Shown here: positions 6,479 through 25,446 of the stretch, one piece after another | Layout of the letters: every line of letters starts with the position of its first letter | How positions within the stretch are numbered: the first letter of the stretch is position 1 | IMG/VR virus record: IMGVR_UViG_3300035142_000027 | Location: 1-26,212 of that record | DNA from: a virus | Strand: one strand, 5' to 3' | DNA: 26,212 bases | Translations under genes and position numbers: made by a program | Notes under the pieces: generated by a model | The model's database searches: none | Told to the model about the DNA's origin: nothing | The model's input: the letters and a program-made list of their open reading frames with translations, nothing else

Positions 6479-7072
6479 CTAGCAAAATTCAAAAAGTTTT
6501 TTAAAAGATTCTTTATAGACTTTTTTATAAGGGTTCAAAAATTTTTTATTTTGTTCTATAAAATCATTATTAGAATAACCAGTTCCAGAACTACTTCCAA
6601 AATATTCAATTTCAGTATCTTTGATTTTTTCTTTTTTGATATTCCCATCATTGACAATATCTGAATTAATATAAGAACCAATAATGTCAAGAAATACGCT
6701 AGGGAAATCAACTAGGGCTATAATAGTACTGGCTGCTGTTTCTGTTCTCATTGTCTTTGATGATTCTATTGTTATTACTCCACTTGAAAAATCATTGACT
6801 TGAAATAAGTTATCATTGTAAGTTGTACCATATAGCCGAAAAAAATCGCCTGTTATAAATGGCAAGTCTGTATTCAAAGTAATTGTATTTGATGTAATAG
6901 TTAGGTCTGTATCATCATAAATATACAAACCATTGCTTTTTAAGATGAAATCATTCCTGCAATACTGTGTAATTTGTTCAAGTAATTGAGGTATGATTAA
7001 ATCTATTTGACTGTCATAGTCTGTGCTAGTAATCCCCAGCATAGTTTTGATATTAGTTTTGTTAATGACCAA
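6479..7072 (-). CDS. head-tail connector protein (gp6/gp15-like)
   Basis: 197 residues. The start 'VINKTNIKTMLGITSTDYDSQIDLIIPQLLEQITQYCRNDF' is the typical opening of phage head-tail connector proteins: a loop, then a long helix ending at 'I-x-x-Y-C-R-N-D-F'. A beta-rich insertion (residues about 45-115, 'TITSNTITLNTDLPFITGDFFRLYGT') follows, then further helices. These proteins dock under the portal. The beta insertion is longer than in minimal family members. It is the first gene after the glycosyltransferase and starts the connector cluster. Confidence 0.72.
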   Translation of the reverse strand: MVINKTNIKTMLGITSTDYDSQIDLIIPQLLEQITQYCRNDFILKSNGLYIYDDTDLTITSNTITLNTDLPFITGDFFRLYGTTYNDNLFQVNDFSSGVITIESSKTMRTETAASTIIALVDFPSVFLDIIGSYINSDIVNDGNIKKEKIKDTEIEYFGSSSGTGYSNNDFIEQNKKFLNPYKKVYKESFKKLFEFC

Positions 7073-7085
7073 ATTCCATCATCCT

Positions 7086-8144
7086 CTACTTTTGTATAAT
7101 TTCTTTATAAACTTTGTTTATCTGATTGTTGTATGCTTCAAAACTAAAGCATTTTTTATATATTTCTGTATTAGATTTTTTATTTTGATTTTTTAGTTTA
7201 ATAATATAATTTAGACCAAATATCATTTCTTTGACTTTTGTAAAATCAATAGAGGTATCTGATACCCTGCAATTTTGTCCTGCAATTATATAACAATCAC
7301 TTGATATAGCTTCTGCAATAGTTCTGACTATAATACTATTAGGGCTGATAAGACAATCAGCCTTATTGTAGACATTTTCAATTGTGTCAATCCTTCCCTG
7401 TATATCACCAAGTTTGCCAGTTTCTTTAAGTTTTCCTAACAGTATGTTCCAGCAATTTTCAAGCGGAAAATCAAGTCCGTAAAAATGGAATTTTATATCC
7501 AAATCTTTCAATGATTTGTCATTGACAGCATTTACAAGGCTGACAACTAGTTGATAATTACAAATATCTTCTCTTTCACTATCAGCAATAACAAAGTTAT
7601 ACTGCCCTTTATTTACAAAATCAAAGTCATTATCAACTTTTTTAAAAAATCTTGACTGGTCTATAACTGGATAGTTTAAATTTAAAGCTTTTTCCCCAAA
7701 TAAAATATTCCAATCTGGATTAAATTCTTCCCAAAAATAGAGCATTTTTTTTACTCTCTGCCAGCTTGACAACTCATTGTATAAACTATAACTTTGAGAA
7801 CCTTTGTTCGCTTCTGGTCTAAAACATGCAAGCGGTCTACCATGTACAGTCCAAATAATCGGGGCTTGTGTTCTAACTATCCAGCTATCACTGCAACCAG
7901 TATGCATGATAATAATATCTGCATCATTAAGTATTTTAGGGTCACTAGAAATAATCTTTGTATTTCCTCTATCATCAACCGAACCGATGTTCGGCTCGGA
8001 TATCATTTCACCATTTTTGACTTTTCCAGCATCAACCATATAAACTTCATGTCCATATGCTTTATCTGCTAAATACATGTCTCGACTTGCTTCGTATAGC
8101 CCACAACATGACGGTGCGAACATTGTCACATGACAAATTTTCAT
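7086..8144 (-). CDS. GT-B type glycosyltransferase in the head module
   Basis: 352 residues. The N-terminal Rossmann half starts 'MKICHVTMFAPSCCGLYEASRDMYLA...GHEVYMVDA', the usual GT-B (GT4-like) acceptor-side opening, and continues 'NDADIIIMHTG' and 'APIIWTVHGRP'. The C-terminal donor-binding half has a 'VIADSERED' linker, 'KFHFYGLD', then 'YNKADCLISPNSIIVRTIAEAISSDCYIIAG', which corresponds to the GT4 'aDv.v.PS...g....EA...G.pvIa' region. Only one of the two Glu of the EX7E motif is evident. No signal peptide or membrane segment is seen, so it should act in the cytoplasm on folded or assembling virion proteins, or on a nucleotide-sugar pathway. It lies directly downstream of the Ser/Thr-repeat gene and between capsid and connector genes, so a virion protein is the likely acceptor (inference). 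Confidence 0.72.
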   Translation of the reverse strand: MKICHVTMFAPSCCGLYEASRDMYLADKAYGHEVYMVDAGKVKNGEMISEPNIGSVDDRGNTKIISSDPKILNDADIIIMHTGCSDSWIVRTQAPIIWTVHGRPLACFRPEANKGSQSYSLYNELSSWQRVKKMLYFWEEFNPDWNILFGEKALNLNYPVIDQSRFFKKVDNDFDFVNKGQYNFVIADSEREDICNYQLVVSLVNAVNDKSLKDLDIKFHFYGLDFPLENCWNILLGKLKETGKLGDIQGRIDTIENVYNKADCLISPNSIIVRTIAEAISSDCYIIAGQNCRVSDTSIDFTKVKEMIFGLNYIIKLKNQNKKSNTEIYKKCFSFEAYNNQINKVYKEIIQK

Positions 8145-8183
8145 GAAAAAAATACTCCTTTATGTCAATATTTAGTGTTTAGC

Positions 8184-9188
8184 TTATAAAGCACCAACAC
8201 TGTCTATTTTGCTGTTTGTAATTACAAAGTGACTATCTAAAGTACTTTGTAATGTACTCATTAATACACCAGTACTGTCAATTTTGCTATTTCCTGTGCT
8301 TTGAAGAACACCAGTGCTATCTATCTTACTGTTTCCTGTACTTTGAAGAACACCAGTGCTGTCTATCTTACTATTTGCAGTACTTTGAAGAACACCAGTG
8401 CTGTCAATTTTGCTGTTAGCTGTGCTAATAACAACACCATTACTAGTTATTAAGCTATTTGATGTACTGTTTAATGTACCTGTACTGTCAATTTTGCTGT
8501 TTGCAGTGCTTACAAGAACCGCAGTGCTGTCTACTTTTGAGTTTGTAACAGTCACACCACTATCAACCTTGCTATTTCCAACACTTTGCAAAGTTGCATC
8601 ACTGTCTATTTTTGAAATAGCTGTTGATATCAATGTTCCAGTACTATCCGTTTTGGAACTTCCAGTGCTGATTAATAATGCATTACTATCTACAACACTA
8701 TCAACGATTACTACCTTTGAATCTAGTGTCGAAATAGCAAGACCAACACTAGTAGCCAGACTGTTTCCTGTACTTTGAAGAACACCAGTACTGTCAATTT
8801 TGCTATTTGCAGTACTTTGAAGAACACCAGTACTGTCAATTTTGCTATTTGAAGTACTGTTCAATACACCAGTACTGTCTATTTTGCTATTTGAAGTACT
8901 GTTCAATACACCAGTACTGTCTATTTTACTGTTTGCAGTGCTTACAAGAACCGCTGTGCTGTCTGTTTTGCTGCTTCCAGTCGAAACATCAGTTGCAACA
9001 CTATCTAAAACACTAGCTGTTGAGTCAATAACTGTAGCACTTGAACCTATAGTGCTTACTGCTGTTGATTGTTCTGTTGTGATTGAATCAAGTACTGTAG
9101 CACTTGAACTAATCAAAGTTGCAGAACTGTCTACACTTGACATACCAGCTCCCCAGCTTTCAATTTTGCCCTCTAATGTTTGAGCCAT
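8184..9188 (-). CDS. Ser/Thr-rich 14-residue repeat protein, probable virion decoration or fibre
   Basis: 334 residues, about half Ser and Thr, with almost no Cys, Trp or Tyr apart from a single Trp near the N-terminus. After a short head (MAQTLEGKIESWGAGMSS) the chain is nearly all repeats of about 14 residues with the consensus N-S-K-I-D-S-T-G-V-L-[QN]-S-T-[AGS]. Roughly twenty units are present, some degenerate. The hydrophobic I, V and L recur at fixed positions, suggesting a long regular rod (trimeric coiled coil or beta-fibre). It is encoded immediately after the major capsid gene, so it is probably attached to the head. The adjacent glycosyltransferase makes it a candidate O-glycosylated protein. 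The function is inferred from composition and context. The start ATG has an AAGGAG site a few bases upstream. Confidence 0.65.
   Translation of the reverse strand: MAQTLEGKIESWGAGMSSVDSSATLISSSATVLDSITTEQSTAVSTIGSSATVIDSTASVLDSVATDVSTGSSKTDSTAVLVSTANSKIDSTGVLNSTSNSKIDSTGVLNSTSNSKIDSTGVLQSTANSKIDSTGVLQSTGNSLATSVGLAISTLDSKVVIVDSVVDSNALLISTGSSKTDSTGTLISTAISKIDSDATLQSVGNSKVDSGVTVTNSKVDSTAVLVSTANSKIDSTGTLNSTSNSLITSNGVVISTANSKIDSTGVLQSTANSKIDSTGVLQSTGNSKIDSTGVLQSTGNSKIDSTGVLMSTLQSTLDSHFVITNSKIDSVGAL
8190..9000 (-). repeat. 42-bp tandem coding repeats
   Basis: The DNA repeats with a period near 42 bases, matching the 14-residue protein repeat. Units such as 'CTGTCAATTTTGCTATTTG' (plus-strand view) recur with small changes. 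The most uniform block is 8250-8410, and a second near-identical block lies at 8760-8940. The uneven identity suggests recent local duplication and recombination between blocks. Confidence 0.85.
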
Positions 9189-9278: not shown

Positions 9279-10163
9279 TTAAGTAGACCTTTTATGAATA
9301 TAAACATTACCGACTTTGTTATCAGCCATAAATAAATCATGATAAACCCTGTAACACATTAAAGTTCCTGAATAATCAGCATTATTTTTATTTTCAATAA
9401 ACTTGATTTCTTCGTATTTTTTGACAGCAATAATTGAAGGTTTATGAGCAATCATGAAATTAAGTGCCTCAGCTCCAACCGCAGGTGTAAAGCCATCTGT
9501 AGCACTAAAAGTAAATTCCTGATAGAATCTAGCTTTTGGCACTTCTTTGACTATCATTCCATTCAAACCTTTGATTTGAGTATCAATAATATTATTGTTT
9601 GCAGTAACATTTATTGATTTATAAAACTCTCCTGAGTCCTCCATCAATTGCATCATTTCTGGACTAACATAAAGGATACGACCTTCCCTAGGCACTTCAT
9701 TTTCATTCAATGTCTGAATACCTGTTCTAATAGCACTTACCGCTGTATCATAAGTCAAATCCGCTGTTGCATCTATACCAGATAGATTACAGATTTTATG
9801 AACCCTGTAAGCATCCATTTCAGGGGCAACATGTAATCTTTCAAACTCTGCTCCCACCTCAGCCATGGTTGTCATCGACTCTCTAGCATCTAAGGTATCT
9901 AAATTAAACTTTTTGCTCCTGTCTTGACTCATAGTGTGTGCTTCATATGCAACAGTGATATCACCAGCGTCATAGCCTGTAGTTCTGTTATAATCACCAA
10001 GACCCTCCAATGTCATTTTTCTCAAATAAATTGTCCTTGCATTTTCAGCTGAAAATCTAACACTATCTGGACTTGCTTCAAGGTCGGATAATGCACTATT
10101 GTATTTGTTAACCCTATCAAGCATCTCAAGATATTTTGAATAATAACCAATATTATTTCCCAT
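9279..10163 (-). CDS. major capsid protein (HK97 fold)
   Basis: 294 residues. The N-terminal helix (YYSKYLEMLDRVNKYNSALSDLE) is followed by 'ARTIYLRKMTLEGLGDYNRTTGYDAGDITVAYEAHTMSQDRSKKFNLDTLDARES', typical of A118/SPP1-like Firmicutes capsid proteins with an E-loop, then an A-domain region ('VPREGRILYVSPEMMQLMEDSGEF', 'GLNGMIVKEVPKARFY') and the C-terminal 'FMIAHKPSIIAVKKYEEIKF' strand. It directly follows the scaffold gene. No long N-terminal delta domain or internal protease gene is seen, which fits use of a separate scaffold protein. Confidence 0.88.
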   Translation of the reverse strand: MGNNIGYYSKYLEMLDRVNKYNSALSDLEASPDSVRFSAENARTIYLRKMTLEGLGDYNRTTGYDAGDITVAYEAHTMSQDRSKKFNLDTLDARESMTTMAEVGAEFERLHVAPEMDAYRVHKICNLSGIDATADLTYDTAVSAIRTGIQTLNENEVPREGRILYVSPEMMQLMEDSGEFYKSINVTANNNIIDTQIKGLNGMIVKEVPKARFYQEFTFSATDGFTPAVGAEALNFMIAHKPSIIAVKKYEEIKFIENKNNADYSGTLMCYRVYHDLFMADNKVGNVYIHKRST

Positions 10164-10177
10164 TTATATACAACTCC

Positions 10178-10774
10178 TTAACTTTTGATATTGTCAAGGA
10201 AATCAAAGTCGCTGTCCTGCCCTTCAAAAGGATTTTCACCATTACTACCGCCAGAATTTACATTTTGACTGTTTTCGACAACTTTAAACATGTCTTGATA
10301 GTCATTTTTTAAGGTTTTCATTGTTTCATCAAAACCCAATAACTTATCCTCTCTCACCTCAACTTTGTCAAGGTCAATATCTTTCATGAGTAGATTCACA
10401 TGTTTTGCACCGTTTTGTAGTAGTGATTCCTTTACAAGACTTCTTTTGACTACATTGTTAATTTCCTTGTCTCTGTTTTCTAGTTCTGATTTATGTCTTG
10501 TTGACTGTTCTTCGAATTTTTTCTTGTATTCTTCAGATTCAGTCTTAAATTTTTCTGATTCATCCAGCAATTTTTTGTTTTCAGCTATTTGATTTTCAAG
10601 TGTTTTGGATTTTTCCTCACTTGCTGTAAACTTATCTTTCATTTCGTTATATCGATTTCTAGGGATATAACCTTCTAATAAATCGACTTGCCCTTCTTTG
10701 ATATCTGTATCCTTAATCAAATCTAAAAATTGCTTATATTTTTCTTCGCCTAATTTTTCTTTAAATTTACTCAT
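10178..10774 (-). CDS. capsid scaffold protein (minor structural GP20-like)
   Basis: 198 residues from the ATG at 10774, preceded by GGAGG 6 bases upstream. Twelve more in-frame codons upstream lack a ribosome binding site. Residues about 30-130 form a long Lys/Glu-rich coiled coil (ASEEKSKTLENQIAENKKLL..., KFEEQSTRHKSELENRDKEI). The C-terminus ends in a Gly/Asn-rich linker and acidic tail (GSNGENPFEGQDSDFDFLDNIKS). The 'EGYIPRNRYNEMKDKF' segment is the hallmark of the phage minor structural GP20 family, used as scaffold in procapsid assembly. It sits immediately before the major capsid gene and right after a terminator-like hairpin. Confidence 0.85.
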   Translation of the reverse strand: MSKFKEKLGEEKYKQFLDLIKDTDIKEGQVDLLEGYIPRNRYNEMKDKFTASEEKSKTLENQIAENKKLLDESEKFKTESEEYKKKFEEQSTRHKSELENRDKEINNVVKRSLVKESLLQNGAKHVNLLMKDIDLDKVEVREDKLLGFDETMKTLKNDYQDMFKVVENSQNVNSGGSNGENPFEGQDSDFDFLDNIKS

Positions 10775-10838
10775 AAATGCCCTCCAAGCATGTTTTACGT
10801 GTTTAGTCACGGAATAGTTAACGACCTTTTTAGTCGAT

Positions 10839-16738: not shown

Positions 16739-16996
16739 TTAAGACTCCAAAAATTCAATATCAGAAATGCCAATTTCATCAGTGATTATATTATATTTTT
16801 TTATACAGCTATCTATGCATACATGGATTGTTGCTATTTTATTTGTATTCATGAGAAAGCCTGATATATAAATAAACTTGCTGTTTTTTGCAAGTTCTTC
16901 ATGTAACATAATTAGAGATTCTTTTAACTTTTCTTCGTTCTCATACTCAACAATTTTAAAATAACTTTTATCAAAGTTTATTTGTATATAATTCAT
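16739..16996 (-). CDS. hypothetical protein, 85 aa
   Basis: 85 residues, alpha/beta, with strands 'YIQINFDKSYFKIVEY', 'FIYISGFLMNTNKIATIHVCID' and a helix 'KLKESLIMLHEELA' between them. It fits exactly between the methyltransferase (4-base overlap, ATGA) and terS (2 bases), so all three are translationally linked. No family is recognised. Confidence 0.55.
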   Translation of the reverse strand: MNYIQINFDKSYFKIVEYENEEKLKESLIMLHEELAKNSKFIYISGFLMNTNKIATIHVCIDSCIKKYNIITDEIGISDIEFLES

Positions 16997-18513
16997 ATTT
17001 TTTCAGCCTTTAACCCAGTGAGGGTTTCCCATCTTTTTATGATATTCTTGCAGTAATCAACATCAATTTCCATCATAAAACATATCCTGTTTAACTGTTC
17101 ACATGCTATCAAAGTGCTACCACTACCACCAAAAAAATCAATAACTAGGTCATTTTCTTGACTGGATGAATTTATAACCCTGCCGCACAAGTCAAGCGGT
17201 TTAGGCGTAGCATGTCCCCCAGCCTGTTCCCGTTCATCAAGTCCAGCCCTTTTAAAATGCCACACATTATTCATATTGTCATGAGTATTATTAAAATATG
17301 CCCTAGTACTTAAAAATTCTTTATTTGCAGTTTCATATTCTTTTTTTAGTTCTGCATAAGGTTTTTCAAATGCCTTCTTGCCAGCTGTTTTAGCGGCTTT
17401 TTGCATTTTAATATAATTTTCCTCAGTAATTAATTCCCACTGTGACTTACTAGTCCAGTGGTCGCGGGATTTGTCAGAGTGTCCCACTGCTGTTTTCATG
17501 TCTTTGACACTCCACCCCATTTTATTTCTCGACTCCAAAAGATAGTCAAAAATAGGGCTAAAACCCTCGAAAAAATAGTCTTTGTTAGTGTTAAATCCAG
17601 TTATCCCATTCACAAAAAATAGGCATTTTTCGTCTGCGACTGGGTATTGTCTAAAATCTGGACTGTTTTGTCCTTGCCCACTTCCTTTATCCCATGTTAT
17701 CAAATTTCTAAATGTGATTTTTTCAGCTTTAATAAGTGGTTTAAAAATCTCAGCAAAAAAATCCATCAATGGGACATCTATTCCCCAGACATAAAAAGAA
17801 CCATTACTCTCTAAGTGCTGATATTGGATATCAAACCATTTTTTATTAAATTTTAATAAATCTTCATAATTTAAATTATCATTCTTTACCCCTTTAATTT
17901 CCTTTTTCATACCGTATGGTGGGTCGTTATGGGCTAATACTGCCTTTTTGCCATTCATTAATTTTTTTACATCACTTTTATTTGTACAATCACCACACAT
18001 TAGGCGATGTTTTCCAAGTCTGTATACATCGCCTGTCTGGACTTGTGGTACTTCATCAGAGATTGAATCTTCTGTCTCATTATTTTCTTGATTTTCTGTG
18101 ATATCAAAATTTAAATCATCATTTTTGATATCATCTAGAGACAAATCAAGACCAAAATCAGATAGTTCAAAATCTAAATCATAATTTTGAAGGTCTAGAA
18201 GCTCTGCTGTAAGCTTTTCATTATCCCAAGAACTAAATTCACTGACCTTGTTATCAGCTAACCTATAAGCCTTGATTTTTTCCTCTGTAAGGTCATTAGC
18301 ATACAGTACAGGTACTTTTTTCAAAGCTAATAATTTAGCTGCTTTTAGTCTAGTGTGACCAACTATAATAATGTTATTTTTATCCAATACTATTGGTTGA
18401 TTAAATCCAAACTGTTTTATACTTTCAGCAACTTTTTCTACTGCATCATCATTGAGTCTAGGGTTATTTTCGTAAGGTATAACTTTATTAATCGGTATTT
18501 CCAGTATTTTCAA
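16993..18513 (-). CDS. ParB-domain / DNA N-methyltransferase fusion
   Basis: 506 residues. Residues 1-95 are a ParB/Srx-like domain ('IPINKVIPYENNPRLNDDAVEKVAESIKQFGFNQPIVLD', 'VGHTRLKAAKLL', 'RLADNKVSE'). Residues about 165-506 are an amino-methyltransferase of the circular-permuted (beta) class: 'GKHRLMCGDCT', the catalytic DPPYG at 197-201, and the AdoMet-binding 'FFGGSGST' near 460 in the C-terminal part. It should methylate adenine-N6 or cytosine-N4 in phage DNA. No restriction enzyme is seen, so it is an orphan, likely anti-restriction or a mark for packaging start. The start is TTG with a GAGAGGA site 8 bases upstream. The ParB part is DNA-contacting or nucleotide-binding in such fusions, not a partition protein here. 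Confidence 0.88.
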   Translation of the reverse strand: MKILEIPINKVIPYENNPRLNDDAVEKVAESIKQFGFNQPIVLDKNNIIIVGHTRLKAAKLLALKKVPVLYANDLTEEKIKAYRLADNKVSEFSSWDNEKLTAELLDLQNYDLDFELSDFGLDLSLDDIKNDDLNFDITENQENNETEDSISDEVPQVQTGDVYRLGKHRLMCGDCTNKSDVKKLMNGKKAVLAHNDPPYGMKKEIKGVKNDNLNYEDLLKFNKKWFDIQYQHLESNGSFYVWGIDVPLMDFFAEIFKPLIKAEKITFRNLITWDKGSGQGQNSPDFRQYPVADEKCLFFVNGITGFNTNKDYFFEGFSPIFDYLLESRNKMGWSVKDMKTAVGHSDKSRDHWTSKSQWELITEENYIKMQKAAKTAGKKAFEKPYAELKKEYETANKEFLSTRAYFNNTHDNMNNVWHFKRAGLDEREQAGGHATPKPLDLCGRVINSSSQENDLVIDFFGGSGSTLIACEQLNRICFMMEIDVDYCKNIIKRWETLTGLKAEKI

Positions 18514-18699: not shown

Positions 18700-19242
18700 T
18701 CAAAGATGGAAGTTTTTCCTGTAATTGTCCATTCTGTCTTGTGTTAAGCCTATATAGTTTAACGTTTGCAACTCTGAACTATGATTCAATTCAGCCATTA
18801 AAACTGCTAAATCATTAAATTTCAGATAGTGAAAATACGCAAATGTTTTGCGTAAAGAATGACAAGAAAAATGGTTTAAATTAAATTTTTCCTCGATATC
18901 CTTAAAAATTACATGTGCTGACTGCCTAGTTATACTATGCTTGCGTCTTTTTGACTCAAACAGGTAATCATTGTATTTTTTTGAAATAATATACTTATCA
19001 AGCGTCTTTTTTAGTGACTTATTCAACAACATTATTTTGCCTTTTTTGGTTTTTCCTTCTTTAATATATATATAAATGTTGTTTTTAATATCTGATACCT
19101 TCAAACTCAGTAAATCAGATATACGAAAACCTGTGTTAATTCCTGTATAAAATAACATATAATCCCTAGTGTTTTTATATTTGAGGTATAGCTTGATTTG
19201 TTCAATTTGTTCTCTTGATGTTATTGGCAATGCCTTATTCAT
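18700..19242 (-). CDS. compact tyrosine recombinase
   Basis: 180 residues from the ATG at 19242. A TTG four codons earlier abuts the AGGAG site and is unlikely. Only the catalytic domain is present, with the R-K-H-R-H-Y set visible: Arg in 'TGFRISDLL', Lys in 'EGKTKKG', His and Arg in 'HSLRKTF', His in 'ELNHSSEL', and the nucleophile Tyr in 'TLNYIG'. Usual integrases carry an extra 100-150 residue core-binding domain that is missing here. Its site inside the late operon, away from any visible attachment site, argues against a classical integrase. Dimer resolution of a circular phage-plasmid or a role in concatemer processing are alternatives. Activity is plausible because the catalytic set is complete. 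Confidence 0.82.
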   Translation of the reverse strand: MNKALPITSREQIEQIKLYLKYKNTRDYMLFYTGINTGFRISDLLSLKVSDIKNNIYIYIKEGKTKKGKIMLLNKSLKKTLDKYIISKKYNDYLFESKRRKHSITRQSAHVIFKDIEEKFNLNHFSCHSLRKTFAYFHYLKFNDLAVLMAELNHSSELQTLNYIGLTQDRMDNYRKNFHL

Positions 19243-19369
19243 TTTTTTGTTCAACTCCTGTGTAAATCATACCCCAATACTAAATGTATATTCTGTAAAC
19301 CACTTTCAAAACTTATTATTCACGTTTTGACTAGCTTACATAAGTTTTACATTTTTTACCTTTTCAGAA

Positions 19370-21335: not shown

Positions 21336-21716
21336 TCAATACACCGCCCTTGTTATGACTTCTAGACCATAAGTTCTACTTGATGTATTTGTATATGCGA
21401 TGTCTACCTCGTCATCAGCTTCAAAAACTATTTTATCCCCATCAGGAACGTATCTAAGGTCTGAAATAGATGACATGCTCTGAGTCAAAAAATTGAAATC
21501 ATAAGCAGACCCCGAATTGGAATCAACATCCACTGTTAAATTTTCTGCATCTCCATTTGCTGATAAATGTATCCTAATTTCATCTATAACCCATTTATTA
21601 CCAGATAGTGGAGTCGTAATAGTTTCAGCTATTGCTGATGAACCTGCGAATTTATTAATCGTACATTTGGTAACTTTTTCCAAAGCGCCTTTGAGTGTGA
21701 AATTTGATTGAGACAT
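21336..21716 (-). CDS. beta-rich structural protein paired with the tail fibre
   Basis: 126 residues from the ATG at 21716 (AAGGA about 9 bases upstream). Two further in-frame starts exist at 21725 and at 21752. The 21752 start has a good AGGAG site but lies inside a hairpin. The chain is all-beta: 'FTLKGALEKVTKCTIN', 'NKWVIDEIRIHLSANGDAENLTVDVDS', 'GDKIVFEADDEVDIAY' and a closing 'YGLEVITRAVY'. This jelly-roll-like plan fits a small virion surface or fibre-attachment protein. The gene ends one base before the fibre TTG start, so translation is coupled. Confidence 0.6.
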   Translation of the reverse strand: MSQSNFTLKGALEKVTKCTINKFAGSSAIAETITTPLSGNKWVIDEIRIHLSANGDAENLTVDVDSNSGSAYDFNFLTQSMSSISDLRYVPDGDKIVFEADDEVDIAYTNTSSRTYGLEVITRAVY

Positions 21717-21740
21717 TTTTTTCATTCCTTTTTTTGCATA

Positions 21741-21778
21741 GAAAAAAGACATGTCCGCTCCTCTGGAACATGCCTTTT
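21741..21778 (-). terminator. hairpin at the head of the late block
   Basis: On the minus strand a GAAAAAGGCATG arm pairs with CATGTCTTTTTTC around a loop containing AGAGGAG. It ends in a six-U run. It can serve as a terminator for transcripts entering from the early side, and it also sequesters or displays the AGAGGAG site of the 21752 start. The plus strand also gives a U-rich exit, so it may work in both directions. Confidence 0.5.
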
Positions 21779-24262: not shown

Positions 24263-24351
24263 GAAACGTATACCGTATACTACATACCACATACCACATA
24301 CCACACTTGGAAACGTATACCACATACCACACACCACACGAAACGTATACC
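24263..24351. repeat. iteron array, probable replication origin
   Basis: GAAACGTATACC occurs three times in the same direction (24263-24274, 24310-24321, 24340-24351). Between copies a 7-base unit CATACCA is repeated three times in tandem (24283-24303), again at 24323-24329, and as a variant CACACCA after it. The plus strand is almost free of G here, a strong strand bias. The array lies in the 550-base gap between divergent transcription units, just upstream of a replication initiator gene, and an AT-rich stretch (24359-24420) follows that could be the unwinding element. Apart from the early promoter, the tandem repeat and the hairpin to its left, the gap holds no gene. Confidence 0.72.
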
Positions 24352-24534
24352 ACACTTGTATTTAAGCTTATGAAATTAAGTACATAGTAACATCATTTTG
24401 TAAAATCGTCAATTGATGTTTTTGTAAATTAATAGTTAATCAATGATTAATAGTGGGTTGTAAAAGTCAGTAAAGACAGGAAATAAAGGCTTTTATTGCC
24501 TAAAAATAAATAGAAAATTTTGGAGGAATAAAAA

Positions 24535-25446
24535 ATGAATACAATCGAAAATAGTTTTGTTAATTTATTTAATAATGAAAAATATTCTAGCATGACAATT
24601 GAATCAAAGTATTTATATCAAGTTTTGATTTATAGATATCAATTATCAATAAAAAATAAAAATAAATATTCTGATAAAAAAGGTAATATTTTTATTTTTT
24701 ACACAATTGAAGAACTAAAGAAAATATTAAATAAAAGTAAATCAACAATAATAAAATTGAAAAAGGAATTAACAAAATTTGGTTTATTGATTGAGAAAAA
24801 ACAAGGTTTAACAAAACCTAATTTATTATATCCACAACCTGTCATAAACCTAAACAAAAAAAAATCTAGACTTCAAGAAGTCCAAAATTTAGACCCAATA
24901 ATAAAAGATATATATAAAGATAAAAAGATAATAGAAAATACACCATACAGACCAAATTGTCAAGAAAAAAATAAAAAAGATATTATTATTTTTTCTGATG
25001 ATATATCTTTTCATAAAAAAACAGGGAAATTAAAAATAAATTCTGTAAATATGCCTAATTCTAACTGTGACATGGTAAATTCTAACTGTGACATGGTAAA
25101 AAATGTAAGTATAACACAAGAAAAAAATCAGCTAAAAAAAATAACTGACTTTTTCCGTAAACACTTTAATAATGTTAACCCTCATGGATTAAAAAAACTA
25201 TTGAAAATTCCTCTGCATAAAGTATACCAGTATGAGGAATATTTTTCAACTGTCCCTAAGCATTATCAAAATGCAGGATTTTTTGTAGATGCTATCTCTA
25301 AAAACTATGATTTATCAAAACCTGAGCGTCAAAAACCAATACAAGCCACTAATTATGAGCAAAGGAAATATAATGATGATTTTTTTGCTAGTTTGTATGA
25401 TAATATTAAAATAGATAAATATTCAGATTTGGAGGAGGTTTTTTGA
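24535..25446 (+). CDS. RepA_N-family replication initiator
   Basis: 303 residues. The N-terminal 100 residues match the RepA_N plan: 'NLFNNEKYSSMTIESKYLYQVLIYRYQLS', then 'DKKGNIFIFYTIEELKKILNKSKSTIIKLKKELTKFGLL', the winged-helix initiator core of Firmicutes plasmid Rep proteins (pSK41/pAD1 type). The central part is Lys-rich and variable and contains a duplicated 'NSNCDMV'. The C-terminal part (QLKKITDFFRKHF..., KHYQNAGFFVDAISKNYDLSKPE) resembles the family's host-specific domain. A GGAGG site lies 8 bases before the ATG. It is encoded next to an iteron array and reads away from it. Together these suggest that the phage keeps itself as a low-copy plasmid. A phage-type replication protein with the same N-domain is the alternative. 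Confidence 0.78.
   Translation: MNTIENSFVNLFNNEKYSSMTIESKYLYQVLIYRYQLSIKNKNKYSDKKGNIFIFYTIEELKKILNKSKSTIIKLKKELTKFGLLIEKKQGLTKPNLLYPQPVINLNKKKSRLQEVQNLDPIIKDIYKDKKIIENTPYRPNCQEKNKKDIIIFSDDISFHKKTGKLKINSVNMPNSNCDMVNSNCDMVKNVSITQEKNQLKKITDFFRKHFNNVNPHGLKKLLKIPLHKVYQYEEYFSTVPKHYQNAGFFVDAISKNYDLSKPERQKPIQATNYEQRKYNDDFFASLYDNIKIDKYSDLEEVF
25057..25098 (+). repeat. perfect 21-bp tandem repeat inside rep
   Basis: AATTCTAACTGTGACATGGTA occupies 25057-25077 and 25078-25098 without a change, encoding NSNCDMV twice. RepA_N plasmids often carry the replication origin as tandem repeats in the centre of the rep gene, so this is a second candidate initiator-binding site. A 14-base inverted repeat (GACTTCAAGAAGTC) lies upstream near 24869-24882. 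Confidence 0.6.

Follow-up and report, generated by a model that had tools for sequence, protein, structure and literature searches.

A Ser/Thr-repeat protein and a glycosyltransferase, encoded by adjacent genes in the head module of the virus IMGVR_UViG_3300035142_000027, were identified as a candidate virion-modification cassette. In our interpretation (probability roughly 0.7), the GT-B enzyme O-glycosylates Ser and Thr residues of a repeat fibre displayed on the virion. The whole record (26,212 bases) was analyzed and is referred to below as the window.

Organization of the locus

The structural genes of the window lie on the minus strand in the order scaffold, major capsid protein, Ser/Thr-repeat protein, transferase and connector-like protein (Table 1). 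The ORF list places the repeat protein and the transferase exactly where an earlier note on this DNA had put them, 39 bases apart, and each of the two ORFs has an ATG start codon and an AAGGAG-type ribosome site. The same note's location of the pair inside the head module was confirmed by PHROG and Pfam matches of the scaffold and capsid genes upstream and of the connector-like gene downstream, and its reading of the second gene as a GT-B glycosyltransferase is borne out by fold and family; of its description of the first product, the 14-residue Ser/Thr repeats stand, while the number of units is 17 and not about twenty. The repeat gene directly follows the major capsid gene, a position typical of head fibre and decoration proteins, and the same is true in many relatives.

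Table 1. Features of the window discussed in the text.
Feature	Position	Strand	Description	Basis
Ser/Thr-repeat protein	8184..9188	-	334 aa; helical N-terminus (residues ~1-65) followed by 14-residue repeats	ORF, repeat units, homologs
Stretch with 16 of the 17 units	8238..9005	-	protein residues 62-317; remaining unit at residue 34	
GT-B glycosyltransferase (predicted)	7086..8144	-	352 aa	model pLDDT 92.5, structural matches, PF13692 family
Major capsid protein (context)	9279..10163	-		PHROG 422, E 3e-72
Capsid scaffolding protein (context)	10178..10810	-		PF06810, E 8e-19; PHROG 194
Head-tail connector-like protein (context)	6479..7072	-	directly after the transferase	PF05135; PHROG 1236
ParB-N and DNA methylase fusion protein	16993..18513	-		
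Tyrosine recombinase	18700..19254	-		PF00589
Small protein	21336..21752	-	beside a 576-aa protein without family match	
Tandem repeats, iteron-like	24277..24354		ATACCAC 7-base and 33-base repeats	
RepA_N replication initiator	24535..25446	+		PF06970, E 1e-15

Elsewhere in the window, genes for a RepA_N replication initiator, a tyrosine recombinase and a ParB-N protein fused to a DNA methylase were recognized, and tandem repeats resembling iterons lie just upstream of the RepA_N gene. RepA_N initiators are typical of low-GC Gram-positive replicons, and the presence of one here is a hint of a low-GC Gram-positive host. The small protein listed in Table 1, whose gene is far from the transferase, looks related by eye to the product of a gene that in one relative stands right after the transferase (L004:9445-9837).

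The Ser/Thr-repeat protein

Ser and Thr account for 126 of the 334 residues of the repeat protein (38%), and Arg, Cys, Pro and Tyr are absent from it. The regular 14-residue array begins at about residue 62 and is preceded by an N-terminal segment without a strict 14-residue register. Thirteen of the units are strong and four weaker, all of them scoring above the best of 200 shuffles (8.7); at the DNA level the period is 42 bases, with 87-88% match (TRF). Unit positions 2, 8 and 12 are occupied by Ser in 17/17 units and position 9 by Thr in 16/17 (repeat-derived peptide: DSTGVLQSTGNSKI). The codons at the invariant Ser positions are a mixture of AGY and TCN, which no single base change interconverts without leaving Ser, and in comparisons between units, differences occur at third codon positions in 53% of cases and at first and second positions in 30-34%. 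The retention of Ser despite mixed codons and third-position divergence indicates that these residues are held by selection, rather than being a trace of recent amplification; they may be kept as sugar acceptors. The protein ends in NSKIDSVGAL and, lacking Pro throughout, has no LPXTG wall anchor. Pfam matches to DUF3955 and HrpF were weak, spanned 13-25 low-complexity residues and were discarded.

The AlphaFold2 model of the protein consists of a helix (residues 2-65) followed by short strands forming a low-confidence solenoid (pLDDT 57, pTM 0.36). AlphaFold2 produces confident yet unrealistic solenoids from repeat sequences (PMC11795689), and the modeled solenoid, being of this known artefact type, was not used for claims about the fold. 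Periodicity of composition was analyzed across the family: 28 of 31 repeat-bearing proteins (carriers) show a Ser/Thr spacing peak between 3.3 and 3.8 residues and 22 of the 31 a hydrophobic peak in the same range, and a windowed Ser/Thr periodicity score of at least 10 was reached by 25/31 carriers and by 4/415 other ORFs, all four of which are also carriers. This family-wide spacing of about 3.5 residues tentatively favours a helical, coiled-coil-like fibre. The window protein has its Ser/Thr peak at 3.52 and its hydrophobic peak at 4.78, so the helical heptad reading is not pressed for this protein; for this single protein a column-order test of its 14-mers for heptad spacing gave no significant result, and the coiled-coil reading therefore rests on the family.

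The glycosyltransferase

The AlphaFold2 model of the transferase, built from 33 aligned sequences (pLDDT 92.5, pTM 0.91), matches GT-B enzymes with twin Rossmann-like domains over its whole length, the best match being BshA (Z 26.6 over 318 residues). Further structural matches include PimA, HepE and PglA, as well as SdgB and GtfA (the latter two by Foldseek). PF13692 (group 1 glycosyltransferases) is matched by 26 of the 33 family members at E <= 0.01 (best 1.5e-8); the window protein taken alone reaches a best Pfam E-value of 0.099 (PF13692) and is too divergent for assignment on its own sequence, so the assignment rests on the modeled fold and the family. On these grounds, the product is firmly predicted to be a GT-B glycosyltransferase. 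Of the EX7E motif of CAZy GT4, all 33 sequences keep the second Glu (E278), but eight positions earlier the window protein has Ser and the consensus Arg. As the first Glu is not conserved, the enzyme is described as having a GT4-like fold and is not placed in CAZy GT4. The acceptor-binding DUF1975 insert was not found either, no such Pfam domain being present in any of the 33 members, which places the phage enzyme outside the SdgB/GtfA family.

Searches with the window transferase as a single sequence revealed no relative in the PDB or among sequenced phages, and at tblastn sensitivity the two-gene unit has no counterpart in 50,697 sequenced phage records. None of the 33 transferases matched a PHROG; a PHROG methyltransferase hit of the window transferase (0.015) was rejected as spurious. 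The relatives were reached only through the repeat protein, followed by a search with a five-sequence alignment.

T4 alpha-glucosyltransferase (1xv5, 1ya6) is also among the Foldseek matches, and glucosylation of phage DNA is well known, so that the enzyme could be imagined to glycosylate DNA bases of the phage. This is scarcely credible for a gene sitting between the capsid and connector genes: linkage to a repeat protein is not predicted by DNA modification, and no hydroxymethylase-type gene was recognized among the scanned ORFs of the window (a subset of all its ORFs).

Co-occurrence of the two genes

The transferase alignment led to 36 IMG/VR contigs, and every one of them encodes a Ser/Thr-repeat protein upstream, within the same cassette, although these contigs are related and the 36 loci do not represent 36 independent events. 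The repeat protein of L037 was seen through L060, and the automatic criteria (motif counts and Ser/Thr periodicity) together miss only L035 and L036, both of which contain repeats on inspection. In the opposite direction, in searches started from four different repeat proteins, the transferase was present in all contigs that extended far enough; L005 and L052 were the only contigs from these searches that ended too early. The earlier note had proposed a check of co-occurrence in related phages, and neither gene was commonly found without the other. The only match in a cellular genome is a contig binned in a Calditrichota MAG (L044), which starts inside the enzyme gene and whose enzyme is 94% identical to that of the viral contig L003. 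These sequence comparisons support the view that the two genes are conserved together as a unit.

Carriers, clades and capsids

The transferase tree contains two clades, which correspond to two types of carrier. Clade A comprises 24 of the 33 tree members, including the window; its carriers typically begin with MAxTLKGKLDSI or a similar sequence, and the enzyme gene usually comes immediately after the carrier gene. The 9 members of clade B usually have a carrier with a beta-helix-like domain at its start (the carrier of L004 has a different N-terminus), and in most members two ORFs lie between carrier and enzyme, one encoding a methyltransferase-like protein (called by eye from an ELGAGLGS motif, with weak Pfam support) and the other a DUF7164 protein (PF23741, E 2e-38) with an invariant TDxD stretch. 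The clade A capsid proteins tested belong to PHROG 422, and those of clade B to PHROG 371 (L034, L035, L042) or PHROG 10 (L004, L031). The repeat is thus found on different N-terminal domains and beside capsids of different families.

The correspondence of two enzyme clades with two carrier types implies few independent events, as would be expected of two functionally unconnected genes that were co-inherited only as parts of one head module passed down from a common ancestor. We consider this improbable, given that the two clades adjoin different PHROG capsid families and use different carrier domains, and that the same type of beta-helix or capsid also occurs without both genes. For example, in L002, which carries a relative of the window capsid gene, a connector-like gene follows the capsid gene, and neither the repeat nor the transferase is present there.

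The beta-helix domain found in carriers of the second type is much more widespread than the cassette, and it was used for a discriminating test. A scan with four sequences (the nine-sequence alignment was too diverse) matched at least 172 viral loci, of which 80 were kept; 52 of these were non-redundant, with enough downstream sequence, and were divided according to the presence of a repeat tail, assigned by inspection of the tails together with motif counts. The transferase is encoded in 4/4 loci with the repeat tail and in 1/48 without it (Fisher p = 1.8e-5); the four repeat-positive contigs had already come up in the enzyme search, and the informative part of the comparison is therefore the 47 of 48 loci lacking the enzyme. 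The exception, L139 (8368-9345), has a very distant enzyme homolog adjacent to two beta-helix proteins and no Ser/Thr repeat; in the tree this enzyme forms a very long branch outside both clades (end branch 4.2). In a further locus (L097), a repeat tail is present, 121 bases short of the contig end. In the complete phage MW202647, a beta-helix protein is encoded after the capsid gene, and both the repeat and the transferase are missing. This post-capsid beta-helix-like protein (L057, MW202647.1, 6001-6900) is annotated as a lacto-N-biosidase. These data support an association that tracks the repeat, and not the type of capsid or the N-terminal domain of the carrier.

Genes of other kinds were observed beside the cassette in relatives, namely those for a DUF285 repeat protein (L003:8515-9549) and an arabinofuranosidase-like protein (L013:4221-5069), and the surroundings of the clade A cassette look like a variable surface-gene island. 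The sharing of an island with such surface-type genes would also suit a transferase directed at another virion protein (capsid or tail) or at the host surface, the repeat protein being an unmodified fibre that co-travels as a useful surface gene. The GT-B fold does not fix the acceptor, and the closest folds, BshA, PimA and HepE, act on small molecules or lipids; on the other hand, SdgB and GtfA, fold relatives of the enzyme, are peptide O-GlcNAc transferases of Ser-rich repeats, which speaks for the repeat as the acceptor. Since the linkage is to the repeat, and to neither the beta-helix carrier nor the capsid family, and since the remaining surface genes of the island vary in presence whereas the pair of repeat and transferase does not, a target other than the repeat appears unlikely.

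Comparison with known systems

Streptococcal GtfA and GtfB act with serine-rich repeat adhesins. Likewise, SdgA and SdgB are dedicated transferases for the Ser-Asp repeat adhesins of staphylococci (PMC8561734, PMC3794999). The phage pair shares with these systems the genetic pairing of a Ser-rich repeat protein with a GT-B transferase (in 36/36 contigs here) and the match in fold. It differs in that the phage enzyme lacks the DUF1975 insert, which binds the acceptor in enzymes of the SdgB/GtfA type (PMC8561734), and the repeat protein lacks a wall anchor; moreover, the phage family is virus-restricted as far as searched, and its repeat is of 14 residues, with Ser at positions 2, 8 and 12 and Thr at 9. 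From BshA, PimA, HepE and other GT4-fold transferases, which it resembles in overall fold (Z 24-27), the phage enzyme is set apart by low identity (11-16%), by the non-conserved first Glu of EX7E and by an acceptor that is presumably a protein.

Glycosylation of phage virions is documented mainly in mycobacteriophages. According to PMC11256854 and PMC12619734, it occurs in phages Che8 and Rita (Freeman et al. 2023, as cited there), phage transferases attach the glycan to capsid and tail-tube subunits at their C-termini, and the transferases of Maravista are encoded near the 3' end of the genome. Common to both cases are phage-encoded transferases, with a glycan on virion proteins in the mycobacteriophages and a predicted one here; the difference is that the presumed acceptor here is a Ser/Thr-repeat protein in its own right, with the enzyme encoded next to it in the head module. 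With phage head fibres and post-capsid decoration proteins, the repeat protein has in common the location of its gene after the major capsid gene and a repetitive, presumably elongated character; it is distinguished from them by the Ser/Thr repeat with a linked transferase, and its place on the virion is a predicted one.

By analogy, the phage pair resembles the Ser-repeat and transferase systems in a setting of virion glycosylation. Both phage virion glycosylation and the Gram-positive pairs were already known, and the pairing of such a repeat with a transferase in phages may be new: a limited search of open-licence papers, which is weak evidence of novelty, returned no description of a phage Ser/Thr-repeat and transferase pair, in agreement with the earlier note, whose author knew of none.

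Proposed mode of action and significance

We propose that the repeat protein is made together with the late head proteins and that its non-repeat N-terminal part would attach it to the capsid or neck for display, with the repeats forming an elongated fibre whose regularly spaced Ser and Thr residues serve as acceptors. The GT-B enzyme would act in the cytoplasm, before virion assembly or in the course of it, moving a sugar from a nucleotide-sugar donor to the Ser/Thr hydroxyls. In clade B, extension or methylation of the glycan may fall to the methyltransferase-like protein and to the DUF7164 protein with its DxD-like motif. The resulting sugar coat would probably act in shielding or adhesion, or perhaps in stability. 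A broader reading, to which we give even chances, is that of a portable phage cassette: a Ser/Thr-heptad module set on varied anchors and always accompanied by its own transferase, occurring beside unrelated capsids and giving an O-glycosylated fibre or sugar coat, to which one clade adds the methyltransferase-like and DUF7164 proteins.

The two-gene unit is small enough for a direct test by co-expression in E. coli. If the proposal is true, the occurrence of such a unit, with its built-in acceptor, across capsid families would make the sugar-coating of virions a modular, exchangeable trait.
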